Assembly: GCF_002742335.1 (NCBI RefSeq)
Contig: NZ_MDGR01000007.1
Span: forward strand, 124,001-188,000
DNA length: 64,000 bases
Direction of reading: 5' to 3'
Origin: Reichenbachiella sp. 5M10
Lineage (GTDB): Bacteria > Bacteroidota > Bacteroidia > Cytophagales > Cyclobacteriaceae
Shown: positions 25,172 to 43,228 of the stretch, in pieces
How the letters are laid out: every line of letters starts with the position of its first letter
Numbering within the stretch: position 1 is the stretch's first letter
The notes under the pieces: model-generated
Databases searched by the model: none
Told to the model about the DNA's origin: nothing
Seen by the model: the letters and a program-made list of their open reading frames with translations, nothing else
Translations under genes and position numbers: made by a program

Positions 25172-25183
25172 TTGGTTGACCAA
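25172..25183. promoter_or_regulatory. TTGGTNNACCAA operator upstream of PL7 gene
   Basis: TTGGTTGACCAA lies 69 bp before the PL7 start. A related site with one spacer base (TTGGTAACCAA, 25141-25151) lies between it and the gene. The arms and 2-bp spacing match the UxuR/ExuR operator consensus known from enterobacteria, so it is probably bound by the GntR regulator encoded next door. Confidence 0.65.
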
Positions 25184-25383
25184 AAGTGAATTACGTCAAA
25201 ATAATGAGTAAATCAAAATGAAGGGAGTAGTATAAATGTCTTAAAATAAGCAGTTTGCGTATTTTTTTGTTTGTCTGGAATAGAGAAGTGCCAAGAAATC
25301 TGAGGCTGAATCGTTTGTAAGAAAAATGTAGATAAGGAAAAATTTGAGAAGAAAAATTTGCAGACTCCCCAAAAATCTCTAAA

Positions 25384-25395
25384 TTGGTCAACCAA
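25384..25395. promoter_or_regulatory. TTGGTNNACCAA operator upstream of gntR gene
   Basis: TTGGTCAACCAA with flanking AA/TT lies 26 bp before the regulator start codon, close enough for autorepression. A degenerate second copy (TAGGTCAACAAA) sits at 25403-25414. Confidence 0.65.
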
Positions 25396-25420
25396 TTAAT
25401 AGTAGGTCAACAAATTACGA

Positions 25421-26161
25421 ATGGAATTATTAAATAACTTCACACAGATTGTCATCGAAACGCCGGTGGACAAGATTATCAATCAAATTAAGGAGTTGAT
25501 TACCTCAGGGCAACTGACCCCAGGAGATAGGCTCCCACCCGAAAGAAAGCTTTGCGAAGCGTTGGGAGTAGGAAGATCACATGTAAGAGATGCTATCAAA
25601 AAACTAGAATTTTATGGTATTCTCAAAACACTACCTCAAAGCGGTACAGTTGTCGCAGGATTGGGCATGACAGCCCTAGAAGGACTGATCTCAGATGTGT
25701 TGAAGTTGGAAGTAAAGGATTTCAAGGCTTTGGTGGAGACCAGAGTAATATTAGAGACCAATGCAGCTGCTTTGGCAGCACAAAACAGAACTGAGGAGGA
25801 TATCGAAGGTCTCGAAGAAGCGCTGCAAGCATATAAAAGAAAAAAGGAAGCCTCAGTACATGCGGTAGATGAGGATTTGATGTTTCACTTGAAGATCGCT
25901 GAAGCAAGCAAAAACTCTGTTTTGAAGTCTTTGATGCTGGTGATTACCCCAGATATCTTGACGAACTACAAGGAGTTGGACGCATGTGGAGAGGGTAGGT
26001 CTGTGTCGGCACTAGAGCAGCACGAGCAGATTTTGTTTCACATCAAAGAAAAAAATATAGATGGAGCCACGCAGGCTATGAGAGATCACTTGAGTGATAT
26101 ATTGGACTTCTCTAGCACTCTGCAAGTGGAGAGATTTAATCAAAGCAATGGTAAAAAATAA
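25421..26161 (+). CDS. GntR family regulator, FadR/UxuR-type (FCD domain)
   Basis: This 246-residue transcription factor has an N-terminal winged helix-turn-helix at about residues 15-80, with the family signature 'GDRLPPERKLCEALGVGRSHVRDAIKKLEFYGILKT'. An all-helical FCD ligand-binding domain spans about 95-230 ('VETRVILETNAAALAA', 'HLKIAEASKNSVL'). FCD regulators such as UxuR, ExuR and KdgR-type proteins respond to sugar acids. The surrounding genes suggest an alginate-derived ligand (DEH or KDG). Operators around its own start suggest autoregulation, and identical sites occur across the locus. It is probably a repressor released by the ligand, which is inference. Confidence 0.92.
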   Translation: MELLNNFTQIVIETPVDKIINQIKELITSGQLTPGDRLPPERKLCEALGVGRSHVRDAIKKLEFYGILKTLPQSGTVVAGLGMTALEGLISDVLKLEVKDFKALVETRVILETNAAALAAQNRTEEDIEGLEEALQAYKRKKEASVHAVDEDLMFHLKIAEASKNSVLKSLMLVITPDILTNYKELDACGEGRSVSALEQHEQILFHIKEKNIDGATQAMRDHLSDILDFSSTLQVERFNQSNGKK

Positions 26162-26199
26162 CCAGAGAGAATTAATGAAATAAAAGGGTACCAAAAAAG

Positions 26200-26227
26200 A
26201 AAGGATTAGCCAAGGGCCAATCCTTTT
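26200..26227 (+). terminator. Probable terminator after gntR
   Basis: A 12-bp stem with one mismatch (aaaggattagcc / ggccaatccttt) has a 3-nt loop and is followed by only a short T stretch, 38 bp after the regulator stop. Confidence 0.55.
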
Positions 26228-26631
26228 AGGGGAAAATCTTACCAATAAAATATCAATTTGGCCGTCGGTATTGTCATTGAGTTTGATTAACCACAATTAC
26301 AAAGATAAGCAAGATCTGTTGTCCTAACAGAAGTGCGAGGTCTTTTTTCCCCACCTAGAGAAGCAATACTACTATTAATACAAGCATGGATATGGAGTCA
26401 CTTTGTGACTAAGACGGATAGACTATGGTTGGAAGATAGCGACCCAATTGACCTGCGGGACCCGTTTTTTGCCAATATCTTACGTTTAGGTATATCATCC
26501 ATTTCATTCAATACGATACAAGGCATTGGTGAGACCGACTCTCTATGCCTCTGTTTAAACAAGATTAAAGCACTTTTTTGATTGGGTGCATAGCGGGAGC
26601 TTTGTCCAATCTGTTCATAGACAAGAATATC
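26228..26631. other. Intergenic region before the PL17 operon
   Basis: About 400 bp without a convincing gene. An 82-codon open frame (26333-26581) resembles no family and has no good start context. No TTGGTNNACCAA site is present, unlike the other lyase promoters of the locus. The region must hold the PL17 promoter unless transcription reads through from gntR. Confidence 0.5.
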
Positions 26632-28914
26632 ATGACGAAGAAAATATCATACTGTAGTAGTCTATTTAGTTGTTTGAGTTTGTTGTTTTTGTTTGCACTT
26701 ATCTCATGTGATACTGCGGACAAAACAGCAAAACTTGGACATCAGAGTATTCTATTTACAGAGGCATCATTAGGGACTATACAAGAGCAGTATGCACAAG
26801 TGCCGCTGTTCTATGAGTCGATGCAGCAAACGATCACGGATGTTGATGAACAGATTACATTGGGTATAGATGTTCCAGAACCCAAGGACTTGGCAGGGGG
26901 CTATACGCACGAGCGTCACAAGCTCAATTACTTGACCATGCAGCGGGCAGGTAAGCTATATGTCATCACTGGCGAAGAGAAGTACAAAACCTATGTGCAT
27001 GATATGCTACGTGCCTATGCGGAGTTATTCCCTACATTGGACAGGCATCCCAGCAAAAAATCTTACTCTAGAGGGAAACTTTTTTGGCAATGTCTCAATG
27101 ACGCCAACTGGCTCGTGTATGCGAGTCAAGCCTATGACTGTATCTACGACCAGTTGTCTGACGAGGAGAAAGAGTTGCTTGAGACCAAGTTGTTTAGGCC
27201 TTATGCAGATTTTCTCTCTATAGAGACTCCACAATTCTTCAACCGTATTCACAATCATAGCACTTGGGCCAATGCAGGGGTAGGGATGATTGGTCTCGTG
27301 ATGAATGACGAGGAATTGGTCAAACGGGCACTTTATGGATTGGAGGACGACGGGTTAAATACGGAAGCCAAAGACAATGATGGGGGCTCTATCAAGGAAG
27401 AGGGGCAGGACCGTGCTGGATTTTTGGCTCAAATGGATTTGCTCTTTTCTCCTGATGGGTTTTATGCGGAGGGACCATATTATCAGCGTTATGCGATCTA
27501 TCCTTTTGTGGTGTTCGCAGCAAGTTTGGAAAACGCTCGGCCCGAGTTGAAGATCTTTGAGCACAGAGAAGGGATACTCTCCAAAGCAGTCTATGCACTG
27601 CTCAATTTGACTGATAGTGATGGGGAGTTTTATCCTATCAATGACGCACAGAAAGGAATGTCCTATTATTCTCGCGAATTGGTGTCTGCGGTGGATATCA
27701 TTTACCATTTTGGGGGACAAAACCCTGAGTTGCTGTCTATAGCCGGGAAACAAAACCGGGTATTGTTAGATGCGAGTGGATTCAGTGTGGCACAAGCTAT
27801 CAAGGACGGGAAAACGAAGGATTTTGTACCGCAATCTATGGAGCTACGAGATGGTGCGGATGGGTCTGAAGGAGGTTTGGGGATCCTCCGAATGAACTAT
27901 GCCGGAGGCGACATCAATGCGGTGTTTAAGTATACCGCACAAGGCATGGGGCACGGACATTATGACAAGCTATCTTATGCCTTGTATGACAATGGCGCAG
28001 AGGTACTGCAAGACTATGGCGTAGCACGATTTGTCAACATCGAACAGAAATACGGAGGGGGATACCTCAAAGAAAACAAGACTTATGCGAAGCAAACGAT
28101 AGCGCACAATACCTTGGTAGTGAACCAAACGACCAACTATGGTGGGAATATTGATATCGCAAACAAACACCATGCTGATCGCTTCTTTTTCGATGCAAGT
28201 CAGCCGGATATACAAATTGCTAGTGCCACAGACACACATGCCTACGAGGGAGTGCGTATGCAGCGTACGATTGCTCTGATTGCAGATTCGCTGTGGGAGC
28301 GGCCGTTGCTGGTAGATGTGATGGACGTAGAGTCTGAGAAGGAAAACACGTATGATTTGCCGTACTACTATTTTGGACAAATTATTTCTGCCAATATGGA
28401 GTATGAGACTTTGGAGGCTCGGAAGCCCCTAGGAGAGAAATACGGGTATCAGCATATCATGGAGGAGGCCAGAGCTTCATCGTTGATGGAAGATGCCAAG
28501 TTGAGTTGGATGAACGACTACCGCTTTTACTCTTGGACTGCTGCGGATAGTGATGCGGATGAGTTTGTGTTTGGACGTATCGGAGCAAATGACCCTAACT
28601 TCAACTTGAGGCATGATCCGATGTTTATGCTCCGAAGGAAAGCGAAAAGCACTGTTTTTGCAGCAACACTAGAGTCACATGGGGATTATTCTCCAGTGAG
28701 TGAATTCTCTAGGGACGCTTTTGCAATGGTGGATGCTGTGGAAGTACTGATGCAATCCGATGAATATACTGCTGTCGAGGTGCGGCATCATGGAGGTGCG
28801 TCGTTTAGATTGGTGATTTGTAAAAAAGACAATAAGGCCGATCAGGCACATACGATAGAAATAGAATCAGAAAAACTCTCTTGGACGGGACCTTATTTTC
28901 TTCAGAGAAAATGA
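26632..28914 (+). CDS. PL17 oligo-alginate lyase, lipoprotein
   Basis: I chose ATG 26632 because it yields a lipoprotein signal with Cys26 (ALISC); the in-frame TTG at 26578 adds an unlikely leader. The 760-residue product has the alginate-lyase alpha/alpha toroid followed by a heparinase II/III-like beta domain. Catalytic-type residues are visible: Asn208-His209 in NHSTWAN, tyrosines in EGPYYQRY (283-284), and the histidines in GMGHGHYDKLSY. PL17 enzymes act exolytically on alginate oligomers and release unsaturated uronate monomers that open to DEH. It is the first gene of a run with KdgF, a transporter and an SDR. Confidence 0.94.
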   Translation: MTKKISYCSSLFSCLSLLFLFALISCDTADKTAKLGHQSILFTEASLGTIQEQYAQVPLFYESMQQTITDVDEQITLGIDVPEPKDLAGGYTHERHKLNYLTMQRAGKLYVITGEEKYKTYVHDMLRAYAELFPTLDRHPSKKSYSRGKLFWQCLNDANWLVYASQAYDCIYDQLSDEEKELLETKLFRPYADFLSIETPQFFNRIHNHSTWANAGVGMIGLVMNDEELVKRALYGLEDDGLNTEAKDNDGGSIKEEGQDRAGFLAQMDLLFSPDGFYAEGPYYQRYAIYPFVVFAASLENARPELKIFEHREGILSKAVYALLNLTDSDGEFYPINDAQKGMSYYSRELVSAVDIIYHFGGQNPELLSIAGKQNRVLLDASGFSVAQAIKDGKTKDFVPQSMELRDGADGSEGGLGILRMNYAGGDINAVFKYTAQGMGHGHYDKLSYALYDNGAEVLQDYGVARFVNIEQKYGGGYLKENKTYAKQTIAHNTLVVNQTTNYGGNIDIANKHHADRFFFDASQPDIQIASATDTHAYEGVRMQRTIALIADSLWERPLLVDVMDVESEKENTYDLPYYYFGQIISANMEYETLEARKPLGEKYGYQHIMEEARASSLMEDAKLSWMNDYRFYSWTAADSDADEFVFGRIGANDPNFNLRHDPMFMLRRKAKSTVFAATLESHGDYSPVSEFSRDAFAMVDAVEVLMQSDEYTAVEVRHHGGASFRLVICKKDNKADQAHTIEIESEKLSWTGPYFLQRK

Positions 28915-28951
28915 TCTAGGAAACGTACTGGAAAATAACAAATGGGATATT

Positions 28952-29323
28952 ATGAAACGATTTAGTGACAAATTTATTTTAACAGACAAGATGGAATGGG
29001 AAGAACTAGGCGGAGGTGTCTCACGCAAGTTCTTGGGGTTTGACAACCAGATCATGATGGTACAGGTGAAGTTCGAAAAAGGAGCAGAAGGTACACCACA
29101 TGCTCATTTTCATACTCAGTCTACTTATTGTGCTTCGGGCAAGTTTGAGTTTACCATAGATGGTGAAAAGCAGATTGTCAAAGGAGGTGATGGAGTCTAC
29201 ATAGAGCCAAATTTATTGCATGGAGCCATCTGTCTCGAAGCAGGTATTCTTATTGATGTTTTCAGCCCAGTGAGAGAGGATTTTCTTGAGGGTGGGGAAG
29301 TATCATATTTTGGAAAAAAATAG
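28952..29323 (+). CDS. kdgF: KdgF cupin, unsaturated uronate linearisation
   Basis: This 123-residue single-domain cupin has metal-ligand histidines in 'TPHAHFHTQ' and 'EPNLLHGA', and the 'GKFEFTIDGE' strand typical of KdgF. The known role of KdgF is to speed conversion of 4,5-unsaturated uronate monomers from pectin or alginate into the linear ketosugar (DEH/DKI). It lies 37 bp after the PL17 gene, which generates exactly these monomers. No signal peptide is present, so it acts in the cytoplasm. Confidence 0.92.
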   Translation: MKRFSDKFILTDKMEWEELGGGVSRKFLGFDNQIMMVQVKFEKGAEGTPHAHFHTQSTYCASGKFEFTIDGEKQIVKGGDGVYIEPNLLHGAICLEAGILIDVFSPVREDFLEGGEVSYFGKK

Positions 29324-29346
29324 TAAACCGTGCTTCGGTCTAAATG

Positions 29347-29363
29347 CCTCTCATGCTGAGAGG
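29347..29363 (+). other. Intercistronic hairpin between kdgF and transporter gene
   Basis: A 6-bp perfect stem cctctc / gagagg with a 5-nt loop in a 73-bp gap has no T-run. It may influence mRNA processing rather than end transcription. Confidence 0.35.
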
Positions 29364-29396
29364 GGTGCGGCCATGGGGCTTTGAAAAGCAGAGATT

Positions 29397-30662
29397 ATGA
29401 AAGTGAAAGGACTAAGATGGTGGATCATTGTATTGATTTTTTTGGCCACCGTCATCAATTATATCGATAGAACAGCCATCAGTGTGATGTGGCCAGGGAT
29501 ATCTGAGGAGCTTGGGTTTACTAAGCACCATTACTCTATCATGCTGAACGTATTCATGGTGGCCTATGCTATTGGTCAGTCTGTTTCGGGGCGAATGTTT
29601 GACAAGATTGGTACACGAATGGGCTATGTGGTCAGTATCATGGCGTGGGGGATTTCCACGGCGATGCATGCCTTGGCTTCAGGATTGTTGTCGTTTGGGT
29701 TGTTTCGAGTGATGCTCGGAGTATCAGAGGCAGGCAACTGGCCGGGAGCAGTTAAGAGTAATGCAGAGTGGTTTCCTGCGAAGGAGAGAGCAATGGCACA
29801 GGGAATCTTTAATGCTGGAGCCTCTATGGGGTCTGTGATAGCACCGCCATTGATTGCGATGCTCTACCTCGGATTTGGATGGAGAGTCACTTTTGTGATT
29901 GTAGGTAGTTTGGTGTTTTTGTGGGTTATTCCATGGTTGATCATCAACAAGGCCTCTCCCAAAAAACACCCTTGGATTACGTCAGAGGAGCAAGAGCATA
30001 TCTTGTCGGACCAGCCAGTAGAGACTCGAGACGAGGATGAGCGAGCTTTGACTTTAAGAGAGATCTTGTCGCACAAGGAAGCGTGGTCTGTACCCGCATC
30101 GCGTTTTTTCTTAGAGCCGCTGTGGTGGCTGTTTGCGGGATGGATGCCTATTTATTTGGCTGATACCTATGGCTTTGATGTCAAAGAAATCGGAATGTTT
30201 GCTTGGGTACCCTATGTAGGAGCTGCCATAGGTAGTATGTCTGGAGGGTGGTTTGCGGGCAAGTTGATTGCACAAGGCAAAGGAGTAGACAAAGCACGTA
30301 AAACGACGATTTCGATTGGTGCTGTGTTGATGTTCTTGGGGTTGTTGGCTACTATTTTTATTGCCAATACGCCAGAAAAATTTGTAGGGATTGTTGCAGT
30401 GGTCCTTTTCGGCTTCCAGTTTTCGATTAGCAATGTCCAGACTATACCGAGTGATTTGCTCAGTGGAAAATCTGTGGGGGCATTGGCTGGTTTTGGAGGA
30501 ACAGTCGGTCTGTTTTGTGTGATTGGAATGAATTTTCTCATCCCGTTTATTACAGAGACGTCTTATACGCCTGCTTTCGTGATCATCGGTGCATTCGTGC
30601 CCTTGAGTGTGATCGCAATATTTGTCCTTTGTAAGGAGATCAAAAGAATAGAAATAAAATAG
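29397..30662 (+). CDS. MFS transporter, ExuT-like (anion:cation symporter family)
   Basis: This 421-residue inner-membrane protein has about 12 transmembrane helices and the family opening 'GLRWWIIVLIFLATVINYIDRTAISVMWPGISEELG'. That opening is shared by ExuT hexuronate and GudP/GarP transporters. Further conserved stretches include 'GVSEAGNWPGAVKSNAEWFP' and 'GxxxGSVIAPPLIA'. Given its place between kdgF and the SDR, it probably imports unsaturated uronate or DEH made by PL17 in the periplasm. The cytoplasmic loop around residues 190-220 is charged, as usual. Confidence 0.92.
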   Translation: MKVKGLRWWIIVLIFLATVINYIDRTAISVMWPGISEELGFTKHHYSIMLNVFMVAYAIGQSVSGRMFDKIGTRMGYVVSIMAWGISTAMHALASGLLSFGLFRVMLGVSEAGNWPGAVKSNAEWFPAKERAMAQGIFNAGASMGSVIAPPLIAMLYLGFGWRVTFVIVGSLVFLWVIPWLIINKASPKKHPWITSEEQEHILSDQPVETRDEDERALTLREILSHKEAWSVPASRFFLEPLWWLFAGWMPIYLADTYGFDVKEIGMFAWVPYVGAAIGSMSGGWFAGKLIAQGKGVDKARKTTISIGAVLMFLGLLATIFIANTPEKFVGIVAVVLFGFQFSISNVQTIPSDLLSGKSVGALAGFGGTVGLFCVIGMNFLIPFITETSYTPAFVIIGAFVPLSVIAIFVLCKEIKRIEIK

Positions 30663-30688: not shown

Positions 30689-31450
30689 ATGAAGTCAGAA
30701 GGTAAAGTAGCCGTAGTGACAGGAGCTACAGGTGGAATCGGTTTTGCAGTAGCAAAAAGATTAGGAAAAGAGGGATATACTGTTGTTTTGAATGGTATTG
30801 AAGAAGAAAAAGGAGCGGAAAGAGTAAAAGAGCTTGAGGCAGAAGGAATCACTGCGGAGTACGTTGGGTTTGACGTGACTAGTGATGAAGCTGTCACTGA
30901 AAACATCACCAAAATTGGTGAAAAGTACGGTAAAATTGACCTATTGGTTAACAATGCAGGTGGTCTAGGTGGAAGATCTAGATTTGAGGAAATGACTACT
31001 GAATTTTACAGATCTGTTATGGCTTTGAATTTGGATTCGGTGTTTTTTGCATCAAGAGCGGCCATTCCTTTCCTCAAAAAAGGAAAAAATGCGTCGATTA
31101 TCAACTATACATCAAACGCTGGATGGAACGCAGGGGGACCTGGAGCAGGTGTCTATGGTACGTCTAAAGCAGGAGTACACGCAATCACGAGAGCACTTGC
31201 AAAAGATTTGGCAGAATATGGAATTAGAGTGAACGCAGTATCTCCTGGTACGATTGACACCCCATTCCATGCTCAAATCAAAGCGACTAAGCCTGAAGTG
31301 TTCGCTTCATGGAAAAACAACATTTTGTTGGGACGAATTGGTGAGCCAGAAGAGGTTGCTTCTGTTGTAGCTTTCTTAGGCAGTGACGATGCTTCTTTTA
31401 TCACGGCTGAGACGATCCAAATCGGTGGAGGTCAAGCTTTAGGGATCTAA
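30689..31450 (+). CDS. SDR-family oxidoreductase, probable DEH reductase
   Basis: This 253-residue classical short-chain dehydrogenase has the cofactor loop TGATGGIG near the start, NNAGG, and the catalytic Ser (NYTS) and YGTSK. It is 26 bp downstream of the transporter. In alginate pathways an SDR reduces 4-deoxy-L-erythro-5-hexoseulose uronate (DEH) to 2-keto-3-deoxygluconate (KDG) using NADH or NADPH, and this gene sits exactly where that step is needed. I do not assign cofactor preference. Confidence 0.9.
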   Translation: MKSEGKVAVVTGATGGIGFAVAKRLGKEGYTVVLNGIEEEKGAERVKELEAEGITAEYVGFDVTSDEAVTENITKIGEKYGKIDLLVNNAGGLGGRSRFEEMTTEFYRSVMALNLDSVFFASRAAIPFLKKGKNASIINYTSNAGWNAGGPGAGVYGTSKAGVHAITRALAKDLAEYGIRVNAVSPGTIDTPFHAQIKATKPEVFASWKNNILLGRIGEPEEVASVVAFLGSDDASFITAETIQIGGGQALGI

Positions 31451-31648: not shown

Positions 31649-31686
31649 GCCCTGCTTGTTGCGAGGCAGGCAGGGCGTTGTTTTTT
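31649..31686 (+). terminator. Rho-independent terminator after the PL17-SDR operon
   Basis: A 10-bp stem gccctgcttg / caggcagggc (one G-T pair) with an 8-nt loop is followed by a T-run, about 200 bp after the SDR stop. The 315-bp gap between the SDR and kinase genes holds nothing else clear, apart from TATTTTTG at 31734-31741, which fits a Bacteroidota -7 element for the kinase gene. Confidence 0.75.
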
Positions 31687-31765: not shown

Positions 31766-32785
31766 ATGTCTAAGAAAAGAGTAATCACGTTTGGGGAATT
31801 ATTGATGCGATTGGATGTGCCGAATCAAGCGCGATTTGAGCAAGCGAATGGGTTCAAGGCATCTTATGGAGGGACGGAGGCCAATGTAGCGGTCAACCTC
31901 ACTAAGATGGGGATGCCTTCAAAGTTTGTGACTGTTTTGCCTGACAATGATTTGGGCAGAGCTGCTCGTGGACACATGCAAAAGTCAGGAGTGGATGTGT
32001 CAGATGTCTTGATGCAGGGCAGACGTTTAGGGCTCTATTTTCATGAGACAGGTACGATGCTTCGGTCGAGCAATGTAATTTACGACCGAGAGCAGTCAGC
32101 ATTTGCGGAAGCAAAAGTTGGGGATTTCGATTGGAAGGAGGTACTCAAGGGGTATGATTGGTTGCATTGGTCGGGTGTGACACCAGCTGTCAGTGAGCAA
32201 GCGTACAATCTGCTGTTGGAGGTGATCACAGAAGCACGAGCACTTGGGATGACGATTTCGGTAGATCTCAATATTCGTAAGAAGCTATGGAACTGGGGTA
32301 GGAAACCAAATGAGGTGCTACCCGAATTGATCGAAGAATGTGATATCCTGTTGGGTAACGAAGAGCACATCAAGGAGTTGTTTGATATACAAGACTGCCC
32401 GTATGATTTGAGGTCCAGTACAGCTCACCTTGGCGAGATATTGACTACTCGTTTTACTCATCTCAAAAATGTAATCGTGACATGGCGTAGGACTATCAGC
32501 GCTAGTCACAACAAAATATCTGCAGCAATCTGGGATGAACACAGTGTCTACGAAGGACGTGTGATTGATATACCAGATATTCTAGATCGAGTGGGGAGTG
32601 GCGATGCGTTGACCTCTGGTATCATCTATGGGCTGATCCAGTTTGAGCACGATCTATACAAAACCATTGATTATGCAATTGCCTGTTCGGCGATGAAGCA
32701 CACCATTCCTGGTGATCTCAATCTAGCAACGAGCCAAGAAATCATGGCGATTGTAGATGGTGACAGTCAAGGAGTGAAGAGATAA
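31766..32785 (+). CDS. kdgK: 2-keto-3-deoxygluconate kinase (PfkB family)
   Basis: This 339-residue ribokinase-family enzyme opens with 'ITFGELLMRL' and has the PfkB signature region 'GGTEANVAVNLTKMG'. The C-terminal signature DRVGSGDALTSGIIYGL has the catalytic Asp in GSGD. It would phosphorylate KDG to 2-keto-3-deoxy-6-phosphogluconate, the step after the SDR reaction. It is transcribed from its own promoter, since a terminator precedes it. The KDPG aldolase that should follow in the pathway is not in this window. Confidence 0.9.
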   Translation: MSKKRVITFGELLMRLDVPNQARFEQANGFKASYGGTEANVAVNLTKMGMPSKFVTVLPDNDLGRAARGHMQKSGVDVSDVLMQGRRLGLYFHETGTMLRSSNVIYDREQSAFAEAKVGDFDWKEVLKGYDWLHWSGVTPAVSEQAYNLLLEVITEARALGMTISVDLNIRKKLWNWGRKPNEVLPELIEECDILLGNEEHIKELFDIQDCPYDLRSSTAHLGEILTTRFTHLKNVIVTWRRTISASHNKISAAIWDEHSVYEGRVIDIPDILDRVGSGDALTSGIIYGLIQFEHDLYKTIDYAIACSAMKHTIPGDLNLATSQEIMAIVDGDSQGVKR

Positions 32786-35669: not shown

Positions 35670-38147
35670 TCATTCTTTGACTATGAGGCGTGTCACCGTA
35701 GGTTGATTGGATCCAGTGAGTTGTAGTGCCCAGATGCCTTTCGCCAATGTGCTGATATCAATACTGTCGTCTTGCAAAGACGCTTCAATTATTTTTTGGC
35801 CAGTGAGTCCAAGTATTTGATAGTGTGTGTAGGACGAGGTTAGCCCATCAATTTGGACTTGACCACTGCTTGGGACTGGATATACGGTGATCGATTTCAA
35901 GAGATGGGTCTCTAGAGGAATTTCTTCCTTGAGCCCCCACACTTCCATTTCAGTGATGCTGTTCCAGTTGTTGGAAGTGTTGCCCGAGCCAATCAACCGG
36001 ACGTATTGTGCTTCTGTATCCTCTAGATCGATGATTTCCAATTCTGCCGTAGTGCCAGAGCTTTTGCCGTTTTTTACCACGGTGGTGAATGTTGTGCCGT
36101 CCATTGATAGTGCTATTTCATAGTAGCTTTCTCGGCTGTCTCCCTTGCCAAAGCCAATTTTGAGATAGTGTACAAACTGAGGGACCCCTAGGTCAAGAGT
36201 GATTGACTGTTCGCCTTCGGATGCCCAAAGTGTACTGAGGTCTCCGTCGAGGACATTCTCCTTGCCGTTGTTTTTATCTGCTTCGACTTGTTCCGCAGAA
36301 GCTGTGACGGCTATGACATCCAGTTGCTCTCCTCCGGGATCTTTACCGTCTTGAGTCACTGTGATTTGATTGGATAGCGCACCTGCAGAGAGGGTTACTG
36401 TGCCTTGTCTTTTGAAAATCTCAGGGTTGGCAGTCGTGCTGATAGTGAGTGTGGCTGACTCTGAATCCGAGGTAGGCGTGATGCTGATCCATGCGTCGGT
36501 AGTGCTAGCAGTCCAATCGAGGTTGGTTGTTATTTCTACAGTGGCTTCACCAGCTGCTTCACCATATGACAATGCTTGTGTGCTTAGTACGAGGTGGTCA
36601 ATTTCGGTTTCTCCGTCATAGTCTGGGTGGTATGATGTAGGGCCTACGTCTGCAGCAGTAAGAGGGAGGTAGCGTACCGACTCTTGGTTGAAAGCATGTG
36701 CTCCCACTGTACTCACGGCTCCTCTAGTCTTGCCTTCTACATCTTCGTCTGCCGTACCTATGACCTCCGTATTGGTTTCATAAGTTGGCGTGTTGGCAGT
36801 GGATTTCCAGACTTGATCAGTATTGTCAAAAGCTAAATTTGGATTGGAGACGAGGATTTCACTGTCGGTGAATGTCTGTGAAGCATCAGCTGTTAGTACT
36901 GCGCTACCTGTAGGGTTCATGACATTGTCCACCCAGACCATATTGTCAGGTGCGTTGTGAAACTTGATAAGCTCATTGCTCTCTCCAGTCACTACGTTGT
37001 ATGCCATGACTACATCTCGGGGTGGTTTGCTGTACTTTCCGTTGTTGTCAAACCCAATTTCAATACCATGGTCATTGTTGACAAGTGTATTGTAGGCGAT
37101 GATAGCTCGCTCGATTCGAAAGTGCTTAGATAGACTGCTGTTGCCTGATTCGGCATCTCCTTCGGTCAGGGTGATAGGGGCATCCCATTTGCTGCCTTTG
37201 ATTCCCTCGATGTAGTTGTTGATGATGACATGGTCTTCGCCGTAGATGCGGATTCCTCCGGAGCAGTAAGTGCCATCAGCATCGGTAGAGCAGGCTGTGT
37301 CTCCCCCGAAAATGTAGTTTCCTTCTATTCGGTTGCGATTGCCGTGACGCAGCGAGATGGTTCCTTCACTGCGTGTGATCGTATTGTGTCTGACGATGTT
37401 GTCGCAGGATTTGATCGATATGATTTCGGGGTCCCCGTTGCATGTTTCGAAAAAGTTGAATTCAATGGTGGTGTATCCGCTCGATTCGGACATTTCGCTC
37501 CATCCTACGCGTATGGACTCTTTTTCATTCGTTGCTCGAGGCCCGTTGTTTTTGAAGTGGTTGTGATCGATGAGGTCAAATTGTGATTGAATGGTTTCGC
37601 CTGATCCATCGATGGTGATATAGTGACCTGTTTCGACCTTGTTTTGAAAAGTGTTGTGGTCGATGCGGTTGTGGTGGCTCAGTGAGCTAGTAGGCTGATC
37701 CCAAACTCCCCCGATGTACACCCATTTGGTTGATGAGGTTTCTTGGAGGTCGAAGGTATTTCTCGTGATACGAATGTTGTTGCTTCCTTCGAGTTTGATG
37801 GCTGTCCCACTATTGGTAAAGGTGAAGCCATGAATGATGAGGTGTTCTGAGGTGCTTAGGACAAATTTGGTACCGCCTGTCAAAGTGGTTGCGCCTATGG
37901 ACTCTGCCATGATCACTATGGGGGCGTCATCTGTCCCTTTGAGGTCTTTGATCGAAATGCTGCCATCATCGTAACTACCAATCGCTAGGACTAAAGTGTC
38001 TCCGGGTTGTGCAGTTTCTATTTGGTCTTTGAGATCATCTATAGTGGAGACGGTCGTCTTGATGCCTTGGGCTTGTGCAGCAAGCGACATGAGACATAAG
38101 AGCACAAGGCTCAGGTTCTTTTGTATATTGGTTTTGTATGTGTACAT
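35670..38147 (-). CDS. PL6 alginate lyase with BACON, F5/8C and type IX secretion domains
   Basis: This 825-residue secreted enzyme has a signal peptide ending AAQAQ and a right-handed beta-helix PL6 (chondroitinase B-like) domain over about residues 28-500. The catalytic pair is visible: Lys246 in EIISIKS and Arg267 in SLRHGN; the conserved NEKESIRVG stretch is at 207-215. A BACON-like domain (about 515-605) and an F5/8 type C module (about 608-740) follow. The last ~80 residues (YPVPSSGQV...LAKGIWALQL...RLIVKE) form a type A C-terminal sorting domain for the type IX secretion system. It probably cleaves MG or G blocks outside the cell, unlike the lipoprotein PL7 enzymes. Confidence 0.94.
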   Translation of the reverse strand: MYTYKTNIQKNLSLVLLCLMSLAAQAQGIKTTVSTIDDLKDQIETAQPGDTLVLAIGSYDDGSISIKDLKGTDDAPIVIMAESIGATTLTGGTKFVLSTSEHLIIHGFTFTNSGTAIKLEGSNNIRITRNTFDLQETSSTKWVYIGGVWDQPTSSLSHHNRIDHNTFQNKVETGHYITIDGSGETIQSQFDLIDHNHFKNNGPRATNEKESIRVGWSEMSESSGYTTIEFNFFETCNGDPEIISIKSCDNIVRHNTITRSEGTISLRHGNRNRIEGNYIFGGDTACSTDADGTYCSGGIRIYGEDHVIINNYIEGIKGSKWDAPITLTEGDAESGNSSLSKHFRIERAIIAYNTLVNNDHGIEIGFDNNGKYSKPPRDVVMAYNVVTGESNELIKFHNAPDNMVWVDNVMNPTGSAVLTADASQTFTDSEILVSNPNLAFDNTDQVWKSTANTPTYETNTEVIGTADEDVEGKTRGAVSTVGAHAFNQESVRYLPLTAADVGPTSYHPDYDGETEIDHLVLSTQALSYGEAAGEATVEITTNLDWTASTTDAWISITPTSDSESATLTISTTANPEIFKRQGTVTLSAGALSNQITVTQDGKDPGGEQLDVIAVTASAEQVEADKNNGKENVLDGDLSTLWASEGEQSITLDLGVPQFVHYLKIGFGKGDSRESYYEIALSMDGTTFTTVVKNGKSSGTTAELEIIDLEDTEAQYVRLIGSGNTSNNWNSITEMEVWGLKEEIPLETHLLKSITVYPVPSSGQVQIDGLTSSYTHYQILGLTGQKIIEASLQDDSIDISTLAKGIWALQLTGSNQPTVTRLIVKE

Positions 38148-38220: not shown

Positions 38221-38252
38221 AAAAAAGGCCTGAGAAAATCCCAGGCCTTTGT
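38221..38252 (-). terminator. Terminator after the PKD lipoprotein gene
   Basis: A 9-bp stem aaaggcctg / caggccttt with a 9-nt inner loop; on the minus strand it is followed by a T-run, 19 bp beyond the stop codon of the gene ending at 38269. Confidence 0.85.
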
Positions 38253-38268: not shown

Positions 38269-39216
38269 TTATTTGATGCTGATTGTGATGTTATCAATCC
38301 AGCTTTCTGCATCACCGTTAGCGTTTGGATCTACACTCTTCATGAAGAATACTAGATTCTCAGATTCTGCAGTGAATTCCATAGTGTATGTTTGGAAGTT
38401 CGCTTTTGCTGCTTCAGCATAGCTTTGTACAGTTACAGAAGTGTATGTGTTTTCTTCTACGATTTCAGTTTCAGAGTGGATATCGTCTTTCAACAACCAA
38501 GCTGTTACCTTATCGATAGCAGGGACGTCTACAGACTCAGTAGATGCACGGAAAGTCACTTCATAGGTAGCACCAGGTACTACAGTGATTTTCTGGTAAG
38601 CACCTCTTAGTGCATCGTTGAATTTGATACCGTTTGTTTTCGTACCGTCATCTAGTTTTTCTCCATCACTAGTCATACCGCCACATCTGAATGCATCGTC
38701 ATCCCAAGCGTGATCAGCAGGTAGTTCCCACTCATCGTTGTTGGTTTGGTACACATCTTTGATTACTTCAGACTCATAGCCTGCGTCATCAAATGTTCCG
38801 TTTCTGAATGATGCTTCAGGGATTACAATTGAAATTACTTCTTCTGCAACGTCAGTTGTTTCGTCAGCGCCAGTGATTGTCAATGTTACAGTGTAATCTC
38901 CAGGAGAAGCATATGTGTGCTCTACGTTCATGTCAGTAGCTGCTTCGCTTTCGTCACCGAAATCCCAAGAATAGCTTACTGCTCCAGTAGATGAGTTGAT
39001 GAAAGTTACGTCAAATACGTCAACTTCCGCGACAAACGATGCTGCAGGAGCCTCTACTGGGCCACCGTCACCATCATCACCGTCACCGCTGCTATCGTCA
39101 TTGCCACATGATGTTGCAAATACTAGAGCACTCATTGCAAATAGAGATGCTGCAAATCCTCTAGTGAAAAAGGCAGATGCCTTACTTTTAGTTAGAAATG
39201 TTTGTTTCATAGTCAT
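38269..39216 (-). CDS. PKD and carbohydrate-binding lipoprotein, probable surface glycan-binding protein
   Basis: I place the start at ATG 39216 (39210 also possible), giving a 315-residue lipoprotein with Cys37 (FATSC). An Asp/Gly/Ser linker is followed by a PKD domain (about 55-140, with 'GAVSYSWDFGDES' and 'YASPGDYTVTLTI'). A CBM4/9-like jelly-roll runs from about 150 to the end ('FRNGTFDDAGYE', 'ESWIDNITISIK'). No catalytic motif is visible. It probably binds alginate at the surface, doing the job of a SusE-like protein, although it is not in the SusCD operon. A TTGGTNNACCAA operator lies 63 bp upstream. Confidence 0.82.
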   Translation of the reverse strand: MTMKQTFLTKSKASAFFTRGFAASLFAMSALVFATSCGNDDSSGDGDDGDGGPVEAPAASFVAEVDVFDVTFINSSTGAVSYSWDFGDESEAATDMNVEHTYASPGDYTVTLTITGADETTDVAEEVISIVIPEASFRNGTFDDAGYESEVIKDVYQTNNDEWELPADHAWDDDAFRCGGMTSDGEKLDDGTKTNGIKFNDALRGAYQKITVVPGATYEVTFRASTESVDVPAIDKVTAWLLKDDIHSETEIVEENTYTSVTVQSYAEAAKANFQTYTMEFTAESENLVFFMKSVDPNANGDAESWIDNITISIK

Positions 39217-39278
39217 TCTTAATTTTAGTAATAAATAGTCTTTAATTTCTAGTTTTCCAATCACAGGGCTACCAATAA

Positions 39279-39290
39279 TTGGTTGACCAA
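39279..39290. promoter_or_regulatory. TTGGTNNACCAA operator upstream of PKD lipoprotein gene
   Basis: TTGGTTGACCAA, identical to the site before the first PL7 gene, lies 63 bp before the start of the PKD lipoprotein. Confidence 0.65.
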
Positions 39291-39407
39291 AGTAGCGAAT
39301 AGTTTTTTTGATTCCAACTTTGTATGAGAAAATCTTATAAAAGCGTCTTGAAATGTGCTTTTATATGCTTTTTCTTCTCTTTTGTTTGATTTGGTTGTTC
39401 AAAAATT

Positions 39408-39441
39408 GGAAAACCATTTTTTTAAAATGAAATGGTTTTCC
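39408..39441 (-). terminator. Terminator after PL7 gene 2
   Basis: A perfect 12-bp stem ggaaaaccattt / aaatggttttcc with a 10-nt loop; the minus strand continues with a T-rich stretch. A second imperfect hairpin (ccatag...ctatgg, about 39446-39480) lies between it and the gene. Confidence 0.7.
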
Positions 39442-39502
39442 TGTGCCATAGCCGTTGAGAGTCTTTGATCTCGACTATGGTTTGATGAGTAAACGTAGGA
39501 GG

Positions 39503-40954
39503 CTATTGTAGCTCGAGTTCGTAGATGATGACCTCTGCGATTTCGTCTGGGTCTTCGTCAGGGGAACTCTTTCCGTTGCATTGGTTCTGTGCACTTGATT
39601 GTGAGTAGCAGCCTGCTTTGAAATAGCATGATTTCAGCGTTTTGTCCCAGGTGAGTTTGTTTTCACCATTGTAGTTGACAATCACTTGATTGTTTTGTGC
39701 GATGATTTCGAGTTCGAAGACATCCCCAAGGGTGTAGTCTAGGTCAAGTGGCACTACGTGGTTGCTGTTTTCGTAAAAACAGGCCAGATAACCTGTGTTG
39801 TCATTAGGGTCACCTTCTTGCGTGACTGTGCCTACACACGGGTCATCACTGCTTCGTTGGTATTTGCCTGGGCTGTTGCCTGTGTAGCGTATCAGGATTT
39901 GGTCATCGCCATTGTGTATTTGCCCTGCGACAACTTGAGGTTTTTGTGTAGGGGCTTTGGTGATTGCTTGTTTGAGATACATTCGATGCATGGTGCTCCC
40001 TTCGTTGCTCCAGTCTGTGTTTCCACTGCGGTTGTATTCGCGTAGTTCTGTTCTAGGATAGTAGGTGCCGCTGGAGGTTCTTTCTCCACCACAGTTTGTC
40101 GCAAAACGAACTCCGATATCGTTACCTTCTTTGTCCTGTACCGTTTCGAAGAAGTTGTACATGGTTTCTTCATAGGTGGCGAGTTCTTCAGGTTTGATTT
40201 CGAGTGCATCACTGGCATGATTGTCTGTGACGTACTCTCCACTTTTATTCAAAGGCAGTGTGATTTTCCAAAGGCCTCTCATGTGAAGTACAGAGCTAGG
40301 GAAGCCAGTTCCGTCTTCGTCTTCATGAACATTGACTACATACTCTTGTGTGCTTCCATCTTCGGCGGTTACCGTGTATGTGACAGGTCCAGTGAAATCC
40401 TGTGCTACACCAGATGCGGGAGTTATTGTGGCATTTTCGGATACTGTTATAGTAGGAGTGAGCGAGCTCCTATTTTCCTGGTAAGGTACCCATGCGTCTA
40501 CTTCCTTGTATTTTTCATAGACGATTCCTACAGCTGTAGGATCATAGGCTTCAAAGGCAAAAGTCAAGAGAAATTTTTCATCGCTTGGAGGTTCTTCGCC
40601 TAAGGTGACCGTGACTGTATAAGCCTGTGTCGATTCGTCTTGTGCAGTGACTGTATAGGTCACGGGTGTACTGAAATCTTGTGCTACACCAGATTCGGGG
40701 GATACCGTAGCGTTAGGCGAAACGACTATGGTAGGGATGAGTGTGGTCAGATCTGTGTCATAAGGAACAGTCATCGTGATGTTCGTTTCAGCGATGGTTC
40801 CTGTGACTACTGGATCGAGTTCATCGAACGAAAATACTTCTATTTGTTTGGAGTCATCCAAAGATGGTTCTTCGCCCTCGTCTTCTTTACATCCTGTAAA
40901 TGTGCTCATTAGAAGGATAGCCAGTCCAATGAATCCTAGTAATTTTTGTTTCAT
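39503..40954 (-). CDS. PL7 alginate lyase lipoprotein with tandem DUF5018-like domains (copy A)
   Basis: From ATG 40954 the protein has 483 residues and a lipoprotein signal with Cys22 (TFTGC). Two related beta-sandwich repeats (about 35-118 and 125-212) each end in 'QDFSTPVTYTVTAQDESTQAYTVTV'-type strands, like DUF5018 modules, and probably act as spacer or binding domains. The PL7 catalytic domain (about 220-483) has RTELRE (301-306), QIH (345-347) and YFKAGCYSQ (444-452), all intact. An extra loop between QIH and the last motif contains cysteines. The same domain order occurs in the gene ending at 41297, indicating duplication. An operator lies 97 bp upstream. Confidence 0.93.
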   Translation of the reverse strand: MKQKLLGFIGLAILLMSTFTGCKEDEGEEPSLDDSKQIEVFSFDELDPVVTGTIAETNITMTVPYDTDLTTLIPTIVVSPNATVSPESGVAQDFSTPVTYTVTAQDESTQAYTVTVTLGEEPPSDEKFLLTFAFEAYDPTAVGIVYEKYKEVDAWVPYQENRSSLTPTITVSENATITPASGVAQDFTGPVTYTVTAEDGSTQEYVVNVHEDEDGTGFPSSVLHMRGLWKITLPLNKSGEYVTDNHASDALEIKPEELATYEETMYNFFETVQDKEGNDIGVRFATNCGGERTSSGTYYPRTELREYNRSGNTDWSNEGSTMHRMYLKQAITKAPTQKPQVVAGQIHNGDDQILIRYTGNSPGKYQRSSDDPCVGTVTQEGDPNDNTGYLACFYENSNHVVPLDLDYTLGDVFELEIIAQNNQVIVNYNGENKLTWDKTLKSCYFKAGCYSQSSAQNQCNGKSSPDEDPDEIAEVIIYELELQ

Positions 40955-41050
40955 AATCTTTCTATTTATTCTTTTAGTCTTCTCAAATGATAGAGACAAA
41001 CCTAACCAATAACTGATCCACAGTCAATTGGAAATCTAAAAAATTAATGA

Positions 41051-41062
41051 TTGGTAGACCAA
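41051..41062. promoter_or_regulatory. TTGGTNNACCAA operator upstream of PL7 copy A
   Basis: TTGGTAGACCAA with an A/T flank lies 97 bp before the start codon of the PL7 gene that begins at 40954. Confidence 0.65.
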
Positions 41063-41220
41063 TTATGTCTTGATATGACTTTTTGTGATCCAAGTATCAA
41101 GGTGAATTGGTGAGTCGATTAGAGAGACGGAGGGTGTGTCAGTGAGGACGAAGTGAGGTGATGACTCGAGGTTATGGTCAAAGTACTTACTGAGACGAGG
41201 CTGGAGTCGGATGAGGAGTA

Positions 41221-41274
41221 AAAAATGAGAGGCCCCTCAGCATTGCATGCAATGCTGAGGGGCCTCTCATTTTT
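41221..41274 (-). terminator. 54-bp perfect palindrome, probable terminator of PL7 copy B
   Basis: Each 27-nt half is the exact reverse complement of the other with no loop bases (centre ...CATTGCA|TGCAATG...). The outer ends are A5 and T5, so it works as a hairpin with a T-run in both directions. It lies 22 bp beyond the stop codon of the gene ending at 41297 and is unusually long and perfect. Confidence 0.8.
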
Positions 41275-41296
41275 GTGCGTGATTATTTGTGATCGT

Positions 41297-42700
41297 TTAC
41301 TCTGTATGATAGGTACGAGCAGAATAAAGGATGACTTGAGAGTCTTCCGTTTTGTCGTCGTTCCACTTGAAGTAGTTGCCAGTTTTGAAATAGTTTTCGT
41401 GGATATAGTCATTGGCAGCATAGTCGTAGAGTTCTGTGTATTCTACATCAATACCTTTGGCCTCACAGCGCAATGCGTAGTAGAGGACACCTCTTTTGAC
41501 CAACAAACTAATTGTGAATTTTTCATTGTCTACTTGTCCTATTGAGTTTTTTCTAATGTATTTGCTCGTCCAAAGGTCTCCTTCTTTGGTCGGTTTTACA
41601 TAGTGTTCGGTGATCAGTTCGCCTTCTTTCCATAGTACCTTGACGGTAGCGGGGTCCCCAGGTGCACCGGTGGTGCTTCTGCCGTGGATTTGTGCTACAT
41701 ACGTTTGTCCGATCCCGTTGCAAAAATCTACGCTGAGTGTGGAAGCTAATCCATGGACGCTTTTTCTATCCATGACCCAGTTGTCTGAGGTTGTTTGGTT
41801 GCCTCTCCAATATTCTCGCAATTCGGTTCGGCAGTACCCTGATCCATTGACTTCTTTGTAGCCAGATGTAGTTGCTCCAGTAAATTTGGTATACATCGTA
41901 TAGCTGTTGTCATCATTTTTGTAAAAGTATGGAGCAGCTTCTGTAGATAGGTTGTCGTTTTCTATGTCCTCATAGTATATAGAGGTGGCACTGCCTCCAT
42001 TGTCAATAGGAACCGAGAGGTACCAGTTGATCCAAGTAAACGCATCGCCGGACTCTAAATCGACCTCTGTCTCTTCGGCGATAGTAGCCACATAAGTTTG
42101 TGTCGAGCCGTCTTCGGCTGTGACGGTATAAGTGACAGGGCTTGTGAAATCTTGCGCTACGCCTGATTTGGGCGATACAGTTGCTTTATTTGAGACAGTT
42201 ATGGTTGGCGTCAGATTGCTGGCAGCAGAGAGGTCGGTGATCCATGCTTTGACTTCACCGTCACCGACGTAGGCATTCACTATAGGGGTCATACCTTCAA
42301 AAGAGAACGAGAGAATGTCTGCCGTATCGCTTAGTGGTGCCGCTTCTTCACTCACTATGACCGAATAAGCCTGAGTGGACTCATCTTCTGCGGTGACCGT
42401 GTATACTACGGCTTGACTGAAATCTTGACTTTCGTCTGATGAGGGTGTTAAGGTTGCCTTTTCGGAAAAGGTAACCGTAGGGGTTAGTTCGGTCACATCT
42501 GTTTCATAAGGTACGGTCAGCGTAATGGTAGTGCCATTGATTGCTCCCGTGACTATTGGATCGAGTTCTTCGAAAGAAAAGCTTTCTATCTGTTTTGAAT
42601 CGTCCAACAAGGGTTCCTGTTCTTCATCTTCTTTGCATCCCGTGATGGAATTCATACATAGAACAGTCATCCCGATGAATAGTAATAATCTCTGCTTCAT
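41297..42700 (-). CDS. PL7 alginate lyase lipoprotein with tandem DUF5018-like domains (copy B)
   Basis: From ATG 42700 the protein has 467 residues and lipid-anchor Cys22 (SITGC). Its first 215 residues parallel copy A: the same leader 'KEDE...LLDDSKQIESFSFEELDPIVTG' and two DUF5018-like repeats. The catalytic domain differs more. It keeps RTELRE (291-296) and QIHG (337-340), but the last PL7 motif reads YFKTGNYFKWN, without the usual Gln. It is thus a diverged paralogue, perhaps from another PL7 subfamily with different block preference or exo/endo mode. It diverges from SusC across a 574-bp gap with operators at both ends. Confidence 0.92.
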   Translation of the reverse strand: MKQRLLLFIGMTVLCMNSITGCKEDEEQEPLLDDSKQIESFSFEELDPIVTGAINGTTITLTVPYETDVTELTPTVTFSEKATLTPSSDESQDFSQAVVYTVTAEDESTQAYSVIVSEEAAPLSDTADILSFSFEGMTPIVNAYVGDGEVKAWITDLSAASNLTPTITVSNKATVSPKSGVAQDFTSPVTYTVTAEDGSTQTYVATIAEETEVDLESGDAFTWINWYLSVPIDNGGSATSIYYEDIENDNLSTEAAPYFYKNDDNSYTMYTKFTGATTSGYKEVNGSGYCRTELREYWRGNQTTSDNWVMDRKSVHGLASTLSVDFCNGIGQTYVAQIHGRSTTGAPGDPATVKVLWKEGELITEHYVKPTKEGDLWTSKYIRKNSIGQVDNEKFTISLLVKRGVLYYALRCEAKGIDVEYTELYDYAANDYIHENYFKTGNYFKWNDDKTEDSQVILYSARTYHTE

Positions 42701-42792
42701 AATCTTCATTTTATGGTGTGTCTTCCTACAGGCGATGACAAACCTATTAAATAATCGGATTGCAAGCAATTGGAATTCTAAACAAATATCAA

Positions 42793-42804
42793 TTGGTAGA
42801 CCAA
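42793..42804. promoter_or_regulatory. TTGGTNNACCAA operator upstream of PL7 copy B
   Basis: TTGGTAGACCAA lies 93 bp before the start of PL7 copy B. The sequence, flank and distance closely match the site before copy A, as expected of duplicated promoters. Confidence 0.65.
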
Positions 42805-42933
42805 AATGTCGCGAATAGATGAAATGATAGGAGAGAGGGGCTTGTACTTGTGATCAAGCGGCTAGAGGAAGTATGATTTAGTGTACGGGTAGTGTTGATG
42901 ATCTTCTTCCCAACTGCTTTAACTAGTTATGTG

Positions 42934-42960
42934 CGTTAAGTGTATCTAACACACTTAACG
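42934..42960. repeat. Perfect inverted repeat in the PL7-SusC divergent region
   Basis: CGTTAAGTGT and ACACTTAACG flank a 7-nt loop. A second, imperfect repeat (11-bp arms, one mismatch) is at 43011-43036. Neither has a T-run, so they are more likely regulator sites or RNA structures than terminators. Confidence 0.5.
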
Positions 42961-43138
42961 TGATGATTAATAATGATTTACTTAACTTATAGGAGGAAAT
43001 CTTGATCACGTCAATGCATGTCTATACATGTATTGATGAGGCTAGCTGCTTTATGCTTTGCCTACTAGGATATAAGCTTACCTGTATGAGCTGAGCTTGT
43101 CACACTTTAGCGGGTAATTCATGTTCTACAGAAGATAT

Positions 43139-43191
43139 TATCCGAACAAGAGGGTGATTTTTCTGAAATTCTTTGTGGAGTTGTTCGGATA
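43139..43191 (+). repeat. Inverted repeat TATCCGAACAA upstream of SusC
   Basis: TATCCGAACAA (43139-43149) and TTGTTCGGATA (43181-43191) are exact complements 31 nt apart. They lie just upstream of the SusC operator, so they could be a binding-site pair or a leader RNA stem. Confidence 0.45.
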
Positions 43192-43216
43192 TTCTCTATA
43201 TTGGCATCTCAATTGA

Positions 43217-43228
43217 TTGGTAAACCAA
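43217..43228. promoter_or_regulatory. TTGGTNNACCAA operator upstream of SusC
   Basis: TTGGTAAACCAA with an AATT-rich flank lies 47 bp before the SusC start codon, within the expected promoter. Confidence 0.65.

Follow-up and report, generated by a model that had tools for sequence, protein, structure and literature searches.

A repeated operator and an AusR-type GntR repressor are predicted to control an alginate regulon in Reichenbachiella sp. 5M10, with a candidate antisense RNA beside the repressor gene

Repression of alginate catabolism by a GntR-family protein is known from AusR of Zobellia galactanivorans, whose source paper is reportedly Dudek et al. 2020 (NAR 48:7786), known here through citing papers. 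In the accessible text of such papers, AusR is described as a GntR repressor, reported in 2020, that acts on single, double or triple operators and is released by breakdown intermediates (PMC7874173, PMC8286568, PMC8073546). In excerpts from one of these sources, GntR proteins account for 16 of the 29 regulators found across 32 polar alginate clusters (PMC7874173, PMC8286568 or PMC8073546), and GntR genes in alginate clusters also appear in the available portions of PMC11381880, PMC13390454, PMC12323373 and PMC4306948. ManR of Bacteroides thetaiotaomicron, likewise of the GntR family, is given as a predicted regulator of a SusC/D system in the accessible part of PMC3878776. Antisense RNAs at polysaccharide utilization loci (PULs) are represented by DonS, from the class of cis-antisense RNAs of 78-128 nucleotides (nt) that lie divergent to susC homologues and affect them negatively, according to excerpts from PMC7366714 (also PMC11697453); 32 PUL-associated antisense RNAs of B. 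thetaiotaomicron are said to show both negative and positive correlations to their PULs in the portion available of PMC10994844. The accessible text of PMC9723704, PMC11697453, PMC10994844 and PMC7366714 reports no antisense RNA at an alginate PUL. Here, we analyzed a stretch of 64,000 nt from Reichenbachiella sp. 5M10 (contig NZ_MDGR01000007.1, positions 124,001 to 188,000; the window), which holds an alginate PUL with a gntR gene and a recurring palindrome, TTGGTNNACCAA.

The evidence makes it highly probable, for the explanation as a whole, that an AusR-type repressor and this repeated operator control an alginate regulon, together with a candidate antisense RNA. A GntR-family regulator is encoded within the alginate PUL, and by sequence a shared operator stands upstream of most alginate genes in single to triple copies, so that the regulon is of the AusR kind, an already known design in another lineage. 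An earlier sequence-only reading of the window had proposed one operator, one FCD-type GntR protein and one alginate regulon, which is supported here. It had also called GntR control of such a PUL noteworthy, but this is no novelty, AusR of Zobellia having been published in 2020 (references above); the regulon is therefore not a new kind. A literature search with operator spellings returned no paper on this subject by title.

An exact scan of the whole window found six copies of TTGGTNNACCAA and no seventh. The mean of 100 dinucleotide shuffles was 0.13 copies, and no shuffle reached six. The coordinates that the sequence-only reading had given for these copies were thus borne out, and Pfam assignments agreed with its account of the genes behind them, namely a PL7 gene, gntR, the gene of a PKD-domain protein, two more PL7 genes and SusC. 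Its upstream distances of 26-97 bp depend on the choice of start codon and become 14-68 bp when mechanically listed starts of open reading frames (ORFs) are used; the upstream placement itself stands. Unmentioned there were a copy with a 1-nt spacer at 25141, which has the form found upstream of gntR in a relative (L090), a half-site near the PKD operator and a weaker site at 39406. With a position weight matrix (PWM) built from the loci of relatives, the six sites scored 17.2-27.4 and the site at 39406, the next-best position in the window, 10.8. The operator upstream of gntR itself points to putative autoregulation.

The scan was extended to the whole genome, as the sequence-only reading had proposed, and gave 12 exact sites versus 7 for the reversed control pattern. 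Six lie in the locus, one precedes an unlinked PL6-type gene and five fall within unrelated ORFs (L005-L009; PWM 2.2-6.8), so that all seven sites outside ORFs precede alginate genes. The unlinked site (L010:3015, PWM 25.7) lies 73 bp before its gene, which encodes 773 aa including a Chondroitinas_B (PL6-type) domain (E 2.9e-200). When A or T was required on both flanks, exactly these seven alginate sites were left (control 2) and the ORF copies dropped out. Family searches of the home genome yielded four PL7 genes and five Chondroitinas_B matches, four of these above cut-off. The unlinked PL7 gene (L098) has a one-mismatch site, TTGGTATATCAA, 51 bp upstream (PWM 14.6), and a second unlinked PL6-type gene (L093) has another, ATGGTTGACCAA, 78 bp upstream (PWM 12.0); sites with at most one mismatch number 249 per genome, or about 0.005 expected per 100 bp. 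In the stretches examined around weaker PF14592/PF05426 matches (L095, L096, L102-L104), no such site was found except one in L096.

The operator is conserved in relatives. Among 68 loci of named genomes with homologues of the GntR protein, the closest being that of Reichenbachiella agariperforans (90%), 33 have an exact site in the 250 bp preceding gntR (mean 0.04 and maximum 1 in 200 shuffles). Many of the remaining loci carry TTGGTNNACCAG, and allowing one terminal C or G raises the count to 49. Double or triple copies occur in relatives such as L013, L037 and L040, and 6 of 12 successive site pairs upstream of gntR are 14-16 bp apart. Elsewhere in these loci there are 34 sites, of which 33 lie outside ORFs of at least 110 aa and 22 precede homologues of PL6, PL7, SusC, PKD or cupin by no more than 300 bp. 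Of 395 genomes sampled across the phylum, 13 contained a homologue at E<=1e-30, the home genome included; among the other 12, ten carry a site with at most one mismatch in the 250 bp before the gene, one carries the 1-nt-spacer form and one has none. Nine of the 12 belong to one family (f7), with 45-49% identity; all nine adjoin a homologue of the window's MFS gene (46-60%) and seven have a site with at most one mismatch upstream. At the order level, all nine homologues of at least 56% identity have the site within 72 bp.

Other homologues in this material were noted in their own right. Second GntR copies in four genomes of one family (L122-L125), 46-47% identical, have no site within 350 bp (0 of 4) and are possibly regulators of another pathway. 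At about 10841 of L057, an operator-like tandem, TTGGTTGACCAG plus a near copy, lies 3' of a gntR homologue and suggests control of the next gene. Close GntR homologues beside a cupin gene were found in L065, L066 and L068, records labelled as Hungatella (Bacillota) and as a soil Bacteroidetes metagenome-assembled genome (MAG), where mis-binning or transfer is possible.

Operator position was then compared with promoter elements in a set of 83 promoters, or 79 without near-duplicates. Of the 79, 44 have TA at -5 or -4 relative to the operator and 16 have it at the mirrored places, and TTG occurs at -31 to -22 in 37 (mean 12.3 and maximum 24 in 1000 mononucleotide shuffles). The accessible text of PMC6847099 describes the Bacteroidota promoter as a -33/-7 type with TTTG and TANNTTTG. 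When TA is at -5, this -7 box is completed by the operator; when TA is at -4, the result is TANNTTGG, which departs from the consensus at one position. Within the window the overlap fits gntR and the PKD gene, and SusC has a -7-like box, TATATTGG, 20 bp upstream of its operator. Because the site recurs upstream of gntR homologues and often overlaps a -7-like box, promoter occlusion is likely, in which the occupied operator would cover the -7 box and the start site. A scan for sigma-70 -35/-10 elements was uninformative (30 found versus 32.3 in shuffles), and the Bacteroidota consensus was used instead.

In the mechanism that we propose, the gntR product would be an AusR-type repressor that, as a dimer, binds one, two or three copies of TTGGT-N2-ACCAA. 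The left arm of the operator coincides with the -7-like box at many promoters, and bound repressor would thereby hide the promoter from RNA polymerase. The predicted targets are the promoters of its own gene and of the PL7, PKD and SusC genes here, with one, perhaps three, unlinked lyase genes. Leaky lyases would produce alginate breakdown products, and an intermediate, be it 4-deoxy-L-erythro-5-hexoseulose uronate (DEH), 2-keto-3-deoxygluconate (KDG) or unsaturated oligouronates, would bind the FCD domain and release the product of gntR from its sites. A separate antisense RNA, about 100 nt long and encoded downstream of this gene, would overlap the read-through mRNA from ausR into the PUL and may damp the PUL part of this mRNA, as reported for DonS.

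Read-through bears on genes that lack an operator of their own. The sequence-only reading found no copy before PL17, PL6 or kdgK, and the three upstream gaps indeed contain no strong site (best PWM score 0.7); on this score a hidden operator in the gntR-PL17 gap was rejected. Its suggestion that these genes may be constitutive is doubtful for PL17, which is on the same strand as gntR and is likely read through from the gntR promoter because the gap between them has no perfect sense -7 box (TAHHTTTG). Separate control is possible for kdgK and PL6, since both lie behind terminator-like hairpins.

On the minus strand of the gntR-PL17 gap, a -7 box and a terminator-like hairpin delimit the candidate antisense RNA, which is predicted to end near the 3' side of gntR. 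The block is 90% identical over 126 bp to R. agariperforans. In 14 loci taken as Cytophagales, the pair of box and terminator is present at the same place in 11 (predicted lengths 96-110 nt; absent from L023, L024 and L034) and nowhere else in 657,530 strand-bases. With TANNTTTG as the box, all 69 loci (2,466,754 strand-bases) gave 18 occurrences at this place, with predicted RNAs of 92-115 nt, and 7 elsewhere, three of which are near-duplicates; the other 51 loci have no such signature. Seven of the 18 loci are from Bacteroidales (L042, L047, L053, L056, L058, L060, L061); six bear the name of Marinilabiliaceae or of one of its genera, and one is an unplaced MAG. These carry a small-RNA sequence of their own. 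Place, size and orientation are kept between Cytophagales and Bacteroidales although the predicted RNA sequences differ. The Saccharicrinis loci L070 and L071, also Marinilabiliaceae, show no signature. The gene after the small RNA is a susC homologue in 15 loci and PL17 in three, including the window. None of the 18 gaps has a perfect sense -7 box, a result that leaves room for one-mismatch boxes and other promoter types, and between the small-RNA box and the next gene there is no operator-like site with fewer than three mismatches. Direct control of the small RNA by the operator motif was rejected, as no site with fewer than two mismatches lies within 80 bp of the -7 box in the 18 loci.

This block could instead be only a terminator or a leader of the downstream mRNA, with no separate small RNA, and such a hairpin could also slow sense transcription. 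The folding and covariance-model signals are partly those of the hairpin itself. Folding z-scores of ten of 17 aligned non-Bacteroidales sequences range from -2.6 to -6.0 with the terminator included, and in the Bacteroidales set, folded without the first ten bases, the terminator hairpin is the one element that forms consistently. In the seven-sequence set that contains the window, 3 of 20 pairs are changed on both sides, and since all of them lie in the terminator hairpin, the 5' hairpin has no covariation support in this set. However, the eight-sequence set without the window has 5 of 16 pairs changed on both sides, four of them among the six pairs of the 5' hairpin; its 12 cells exceed a shuffle mean of 4.9 and were matched by none of 500 shuffles, the pair number itself being reached in 83 of 500. 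Moreover, the terminator scan lists the window hairpin on the minus strand only, and in the 18 loci a perfect minus-strand -7 box stands before the hairpin at a spacing that predicts the short RNAs given above. We therefore consider a terminator or leader alone unlikely.

Covariance models of the two sets, R1 and R2, were searched over 45 chosen sources. With R2, each of the seven sequences in the other set was hit at the same place (E<0.01 for six), and three held-out members, including two near-duplicates, were hit at E 4e-15 to 8e-14. R1 hit five of the eight sequences in its counterpart set, with E<0.01 for four, and both models gave weak matches elsewhere (E >0.01). When R1 was run over 148 genomes of the order, its two strong matches both fell in AusR-positive genomes, of which eight others were missed; five weak matches had E 0.001-0.009. 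A search of 25000-43500 with Rfam models gave five matches (E up to 1), but no match exceeded its gathering score or fell on the small-RNA block, and five small-RNA sequences showed no shared reading frame by eye in three frames. On balance we lean, by a narrow degree, toward two stacked switches at one spot in the alginate PULs of Cytophagales and some Bacteroidales, an AusR-type operator that would drive ausR and the PUL by read-through and a junction antisense RNA that would uncouple the PUL mRNA from the regulator.

The presumed repressor has GntR winged helix-turn-helix and FCD domains above the Pfam cut-offs, which places it in the FadR (FCD) subfamily, and it is the sole match in its own genome at E<=1e-5. 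In an alignment, D152, H156, H201 and H223 are invariant in 42 of 42 homologues, a pattern that we take to be that of the metal ligands of metal-binding FCD domains. Its predicted structure (predicted local distance difference test 81.5, predicted template modelling score 0.70) led in a fold search to the FCD/GntR structures 6az6, 7u5q, NanR 6on4 and DhdR 9jpj; as modelled, this confirms the subfamily and nothing further.

The sequence-only reading had called the operator UxuR/ExuR-like, and a true hexuronate repressor of the UxuR/ExuR type might have been acquired by the alginate locus. The TTGGT/ACCAA arms and the 2-nt spacer agree with sites beside uxuA and uxuR of Escherichia coli K-12, which has three one-mismatch sites in the gntP/uxuA and uxuB/uxuR gaps. 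The agreement is with UxuR only, for the distance between GT and AC is 2 nt in UxuR and 3 nt in ExuR sites according to the accessible text of PMC4494728, and the exu stretch of E. coli K-12 has no site with at most one mismatch outside the listed genes. The protein is 28% identical to UxuR, the highest among eight E. coli regulators, 27% to LldR and 25% to ExuR. However, it scored 78.0 bits versus a cut-off of 442 on the UxuR equivalog model of NCBIfam and 68.4 versus 396 on that of ExuR, and it scored higher on the NanR, LldR, GlcC and PdhR models. In a tree, the 51 homologues group in a clade of their own (98/92) that excludes all eight E. coli regulators, although the long E. coli branches were flagged. 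An acquired repressor of the UxuR/ExuR type is thus very improbable; the DNA site is UxuR-like, and by sequence the protein is neither UxuR nor ExuR.

Several observations weigh against the AusR-type regulon or parts of it. The likeness to AusR of Zobellia is drawn from descriptions of the latter. PL6 and kdgK have no operator, and 19 of the 68 homologue loci are without a site even of the relaxed form. The one-mismatch sites at unlinked lyase genes are weaker than the exact one because they were examined after the genes were known. At the promoters, a further TA peak at -3 on the mirrored side (24 of 79) makes the asymmetry unclean, half of the TA boxes (the -4 group) carry one mismatch to the consensus, and neither PL7b nor PL7c has a -7-like box, either at the operator or upstream of it. 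Finally, the flanked motif has at least one copy in 122 of 148 genomes of the order, with the regulator present at E<=1e-40 in only 10; it is not diagnostic by itself because 112 of 138 genomes without an AusR match carry it. Raw motif counts were rejected as a cross-genome test, as AusR-positive and AusR-negative counts overlap; placement discriminates, counts do not. In two AusR-free members of the family (G194, G076), 10 of 16 sites were inspected, five in ORFs and five intergenic, none of them beside a recognized alginate gene, with neighbours not searched for families. This wide occurrence and the intergenic copies would suit a generic or structural element (chance, hairpin) rather than an operator of this regulator, a very improbable reading given the specificity to alginate promoters in the home genome, the sites upstream of close homologues and not of second copies, and the overlap with promoter boxes.

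The features of the locus are collected in Table 1. PL7a is divergent from gntR, which is followed by PL17, the cupin, MFS, SDR and KDG-kinase-like genes; on the opposite strand are the PKD, PL6 and esterase genes and also PL7b and PL7c, and SusC and SusD stand at the end of the locus.

Table 1. Operators, genes and predicted signals of the alginate locus (window positions).
Feature	Position	Strand	Basis and remarks
PL7a alginate lyase with CBM_4_9 and F5/8C domains	23355..25103	-	Pfam
Secondary operator-like copy, 1-nt spacer, TTGGTAACCAA	25141..25151	-	Between O1 and PL7a
Operator O1, TTGGTTGACCAA (plus strand)	25172..25183	-	Upstream of PL7a; exact scan; PWM 17.2
Putative gntR promoter, TTTG (25357) and TAAATTGG (25380-25387, one mismatch to TANNTTTG)	25357..25387	+	Shares bases with O2
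Operator O2, TTGGTCAACCAA	25384..25395	+	Upstream of gntR; top PWM score of the window
gntR, AusR-like repressor, GntR winged helix-turn-helix and FCD, 246 aa	25421..26161	+	Pfam
Candidate antisense small RNA, ~100 nt, between gntR and PL17	26191..26295	-	Sequence signature
Terminal hairpin of the candidate small RNA, intrinsic-terminator-like, T-rich tail	26200..26226	-	Terminator scan; like hairpins in relatives
-7 box of the candidate small RNA, TATCTTTG	26300..26307	-	
PL17-type oligoalginate lyase	26578..28914	+	Pfam; best NCBIfam model, below its cut-off
Cupin, KdgF-like by position	28952..29323	+	Pfam; name KdgF putative
MFS transporter, probably for sugar acid	29397..30662	+	Pfam, NCBIfam; substrate putative
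SDR, probable DEH reductase	30689..31450	+	Pfam; specificity putative
Terminator-like hairpin between SDR and kdgK	31649..31676	+	Terminator scan
kdgK, PfkB-family, KDG-kinase-like	31766..32785	+	Pfam, NCBIfam
BD-FAE-type esterase behind PL6	34543..35577	-	Pfam
PL6-type (Chondroitinas_B) lyase with type IX secretion system (T9SS) sorting domain	35670..38147	-	Pfam, NCBIfam
Terminator-like hairpin between PKD gene and PL6	38224..38250	-	Terminator scan
PKD-domain protein	38269..39264	-	Pfam
Operator O3, TTGGTTGACCAA	39279..39290	-	Upstream of PKD protein; TTGGT half-site 15 bp on
PL7b alginate lyase	39503..40999	-	Pfam
Operator O4, TTGGTAGACCAA	41051..41062	-	Upstream of PL7b
PL7c alginate lyase	41297..42769	-	Pfam
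Operator O5, TTGGTAGACCAA	42793..42804	-	Upstream of PL7c
Operator O6, TTGGTAAACCAA	43217..43228	+	Upstream of SusC
SusC-like TonB-dependent transporter	43275..46301	+	Pfam, NCBIfam
SusD-like protein	46325..47956	+	Pfam

Other elements were noticed within the locus and elsewhere in the home genome. A gene with a TseH-like Pfam domain and DUF6695 (33609-34541) lies within the alginate locus next to a methyltransferase gene, and neither has a tblastn match in the R. agariperforans stretch L011. Between PL7b and PL7c, an inverted repeat of at least 20 pairs with T-rich tails on both sides (41225-41270) is a strong candidate for a bidirectional terminator; Rfam matches there fall below gathering scores. 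At L007:1745-5712 (C7, about 2.572-2.576 Mb), repeats that are 77-216 nt long and 69-94% alike recur about 700-1500 bp apart among small genes, and three ORFs begin with an identical MAVLSNDTHTHHTQAL; this looks like an integron-type or other cassette array.

These results would extend the AusR model from one flavobacterium to a Bacteroidota-wide regulon with a readable operator, unlinked lyases included, and the placement of the operator on the -7 box offers a physical model that is testable promoter by promoter. If expressed, the candidate RNA would tie a PUL antisense RNA to a marine polysaccharide locus under GntR control and would be relevant to whether such RNAs provide second-layer PUL control outside gut Bacteroides. 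By description, the locus resembles that of ManR in having a GntR-family regulator with a SusC/D system and differs from it in pathway, ManR being assigned to mannosides. With UxuR of E. coli it shares an FCD-type GntR protein and a near-identical palindrome with a 2-nt spacer; its predicted targets, however, are lyase and SusC genes and not those of hexuronate catabolism, and its regulator, as set out above, stands apart in identity, clade and equivalog score. As predicted from its sequence signature, the candidate RNA would resemble the DonS-type RNAs of Bacteroides in size class (92-115 nt against the reported 78-128 nt), in its place beside susC in 15 of 18 loci and in its opposite orientation; it differs in being next to a GntR repressor gene, at whose 3' side it would end, and the window copy faces PL17 rather than susC. 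From AusR of Zobellia the system differs in its Reichenbachiella-like lineage and in the candidate antisense RNA beside the gene, unmentioned in the accessible descriptions of AusR, and it shares with AusR a GntR-family repressor in an alginate PUL, operators in single to triple copies and predicted control of most genes of the system.

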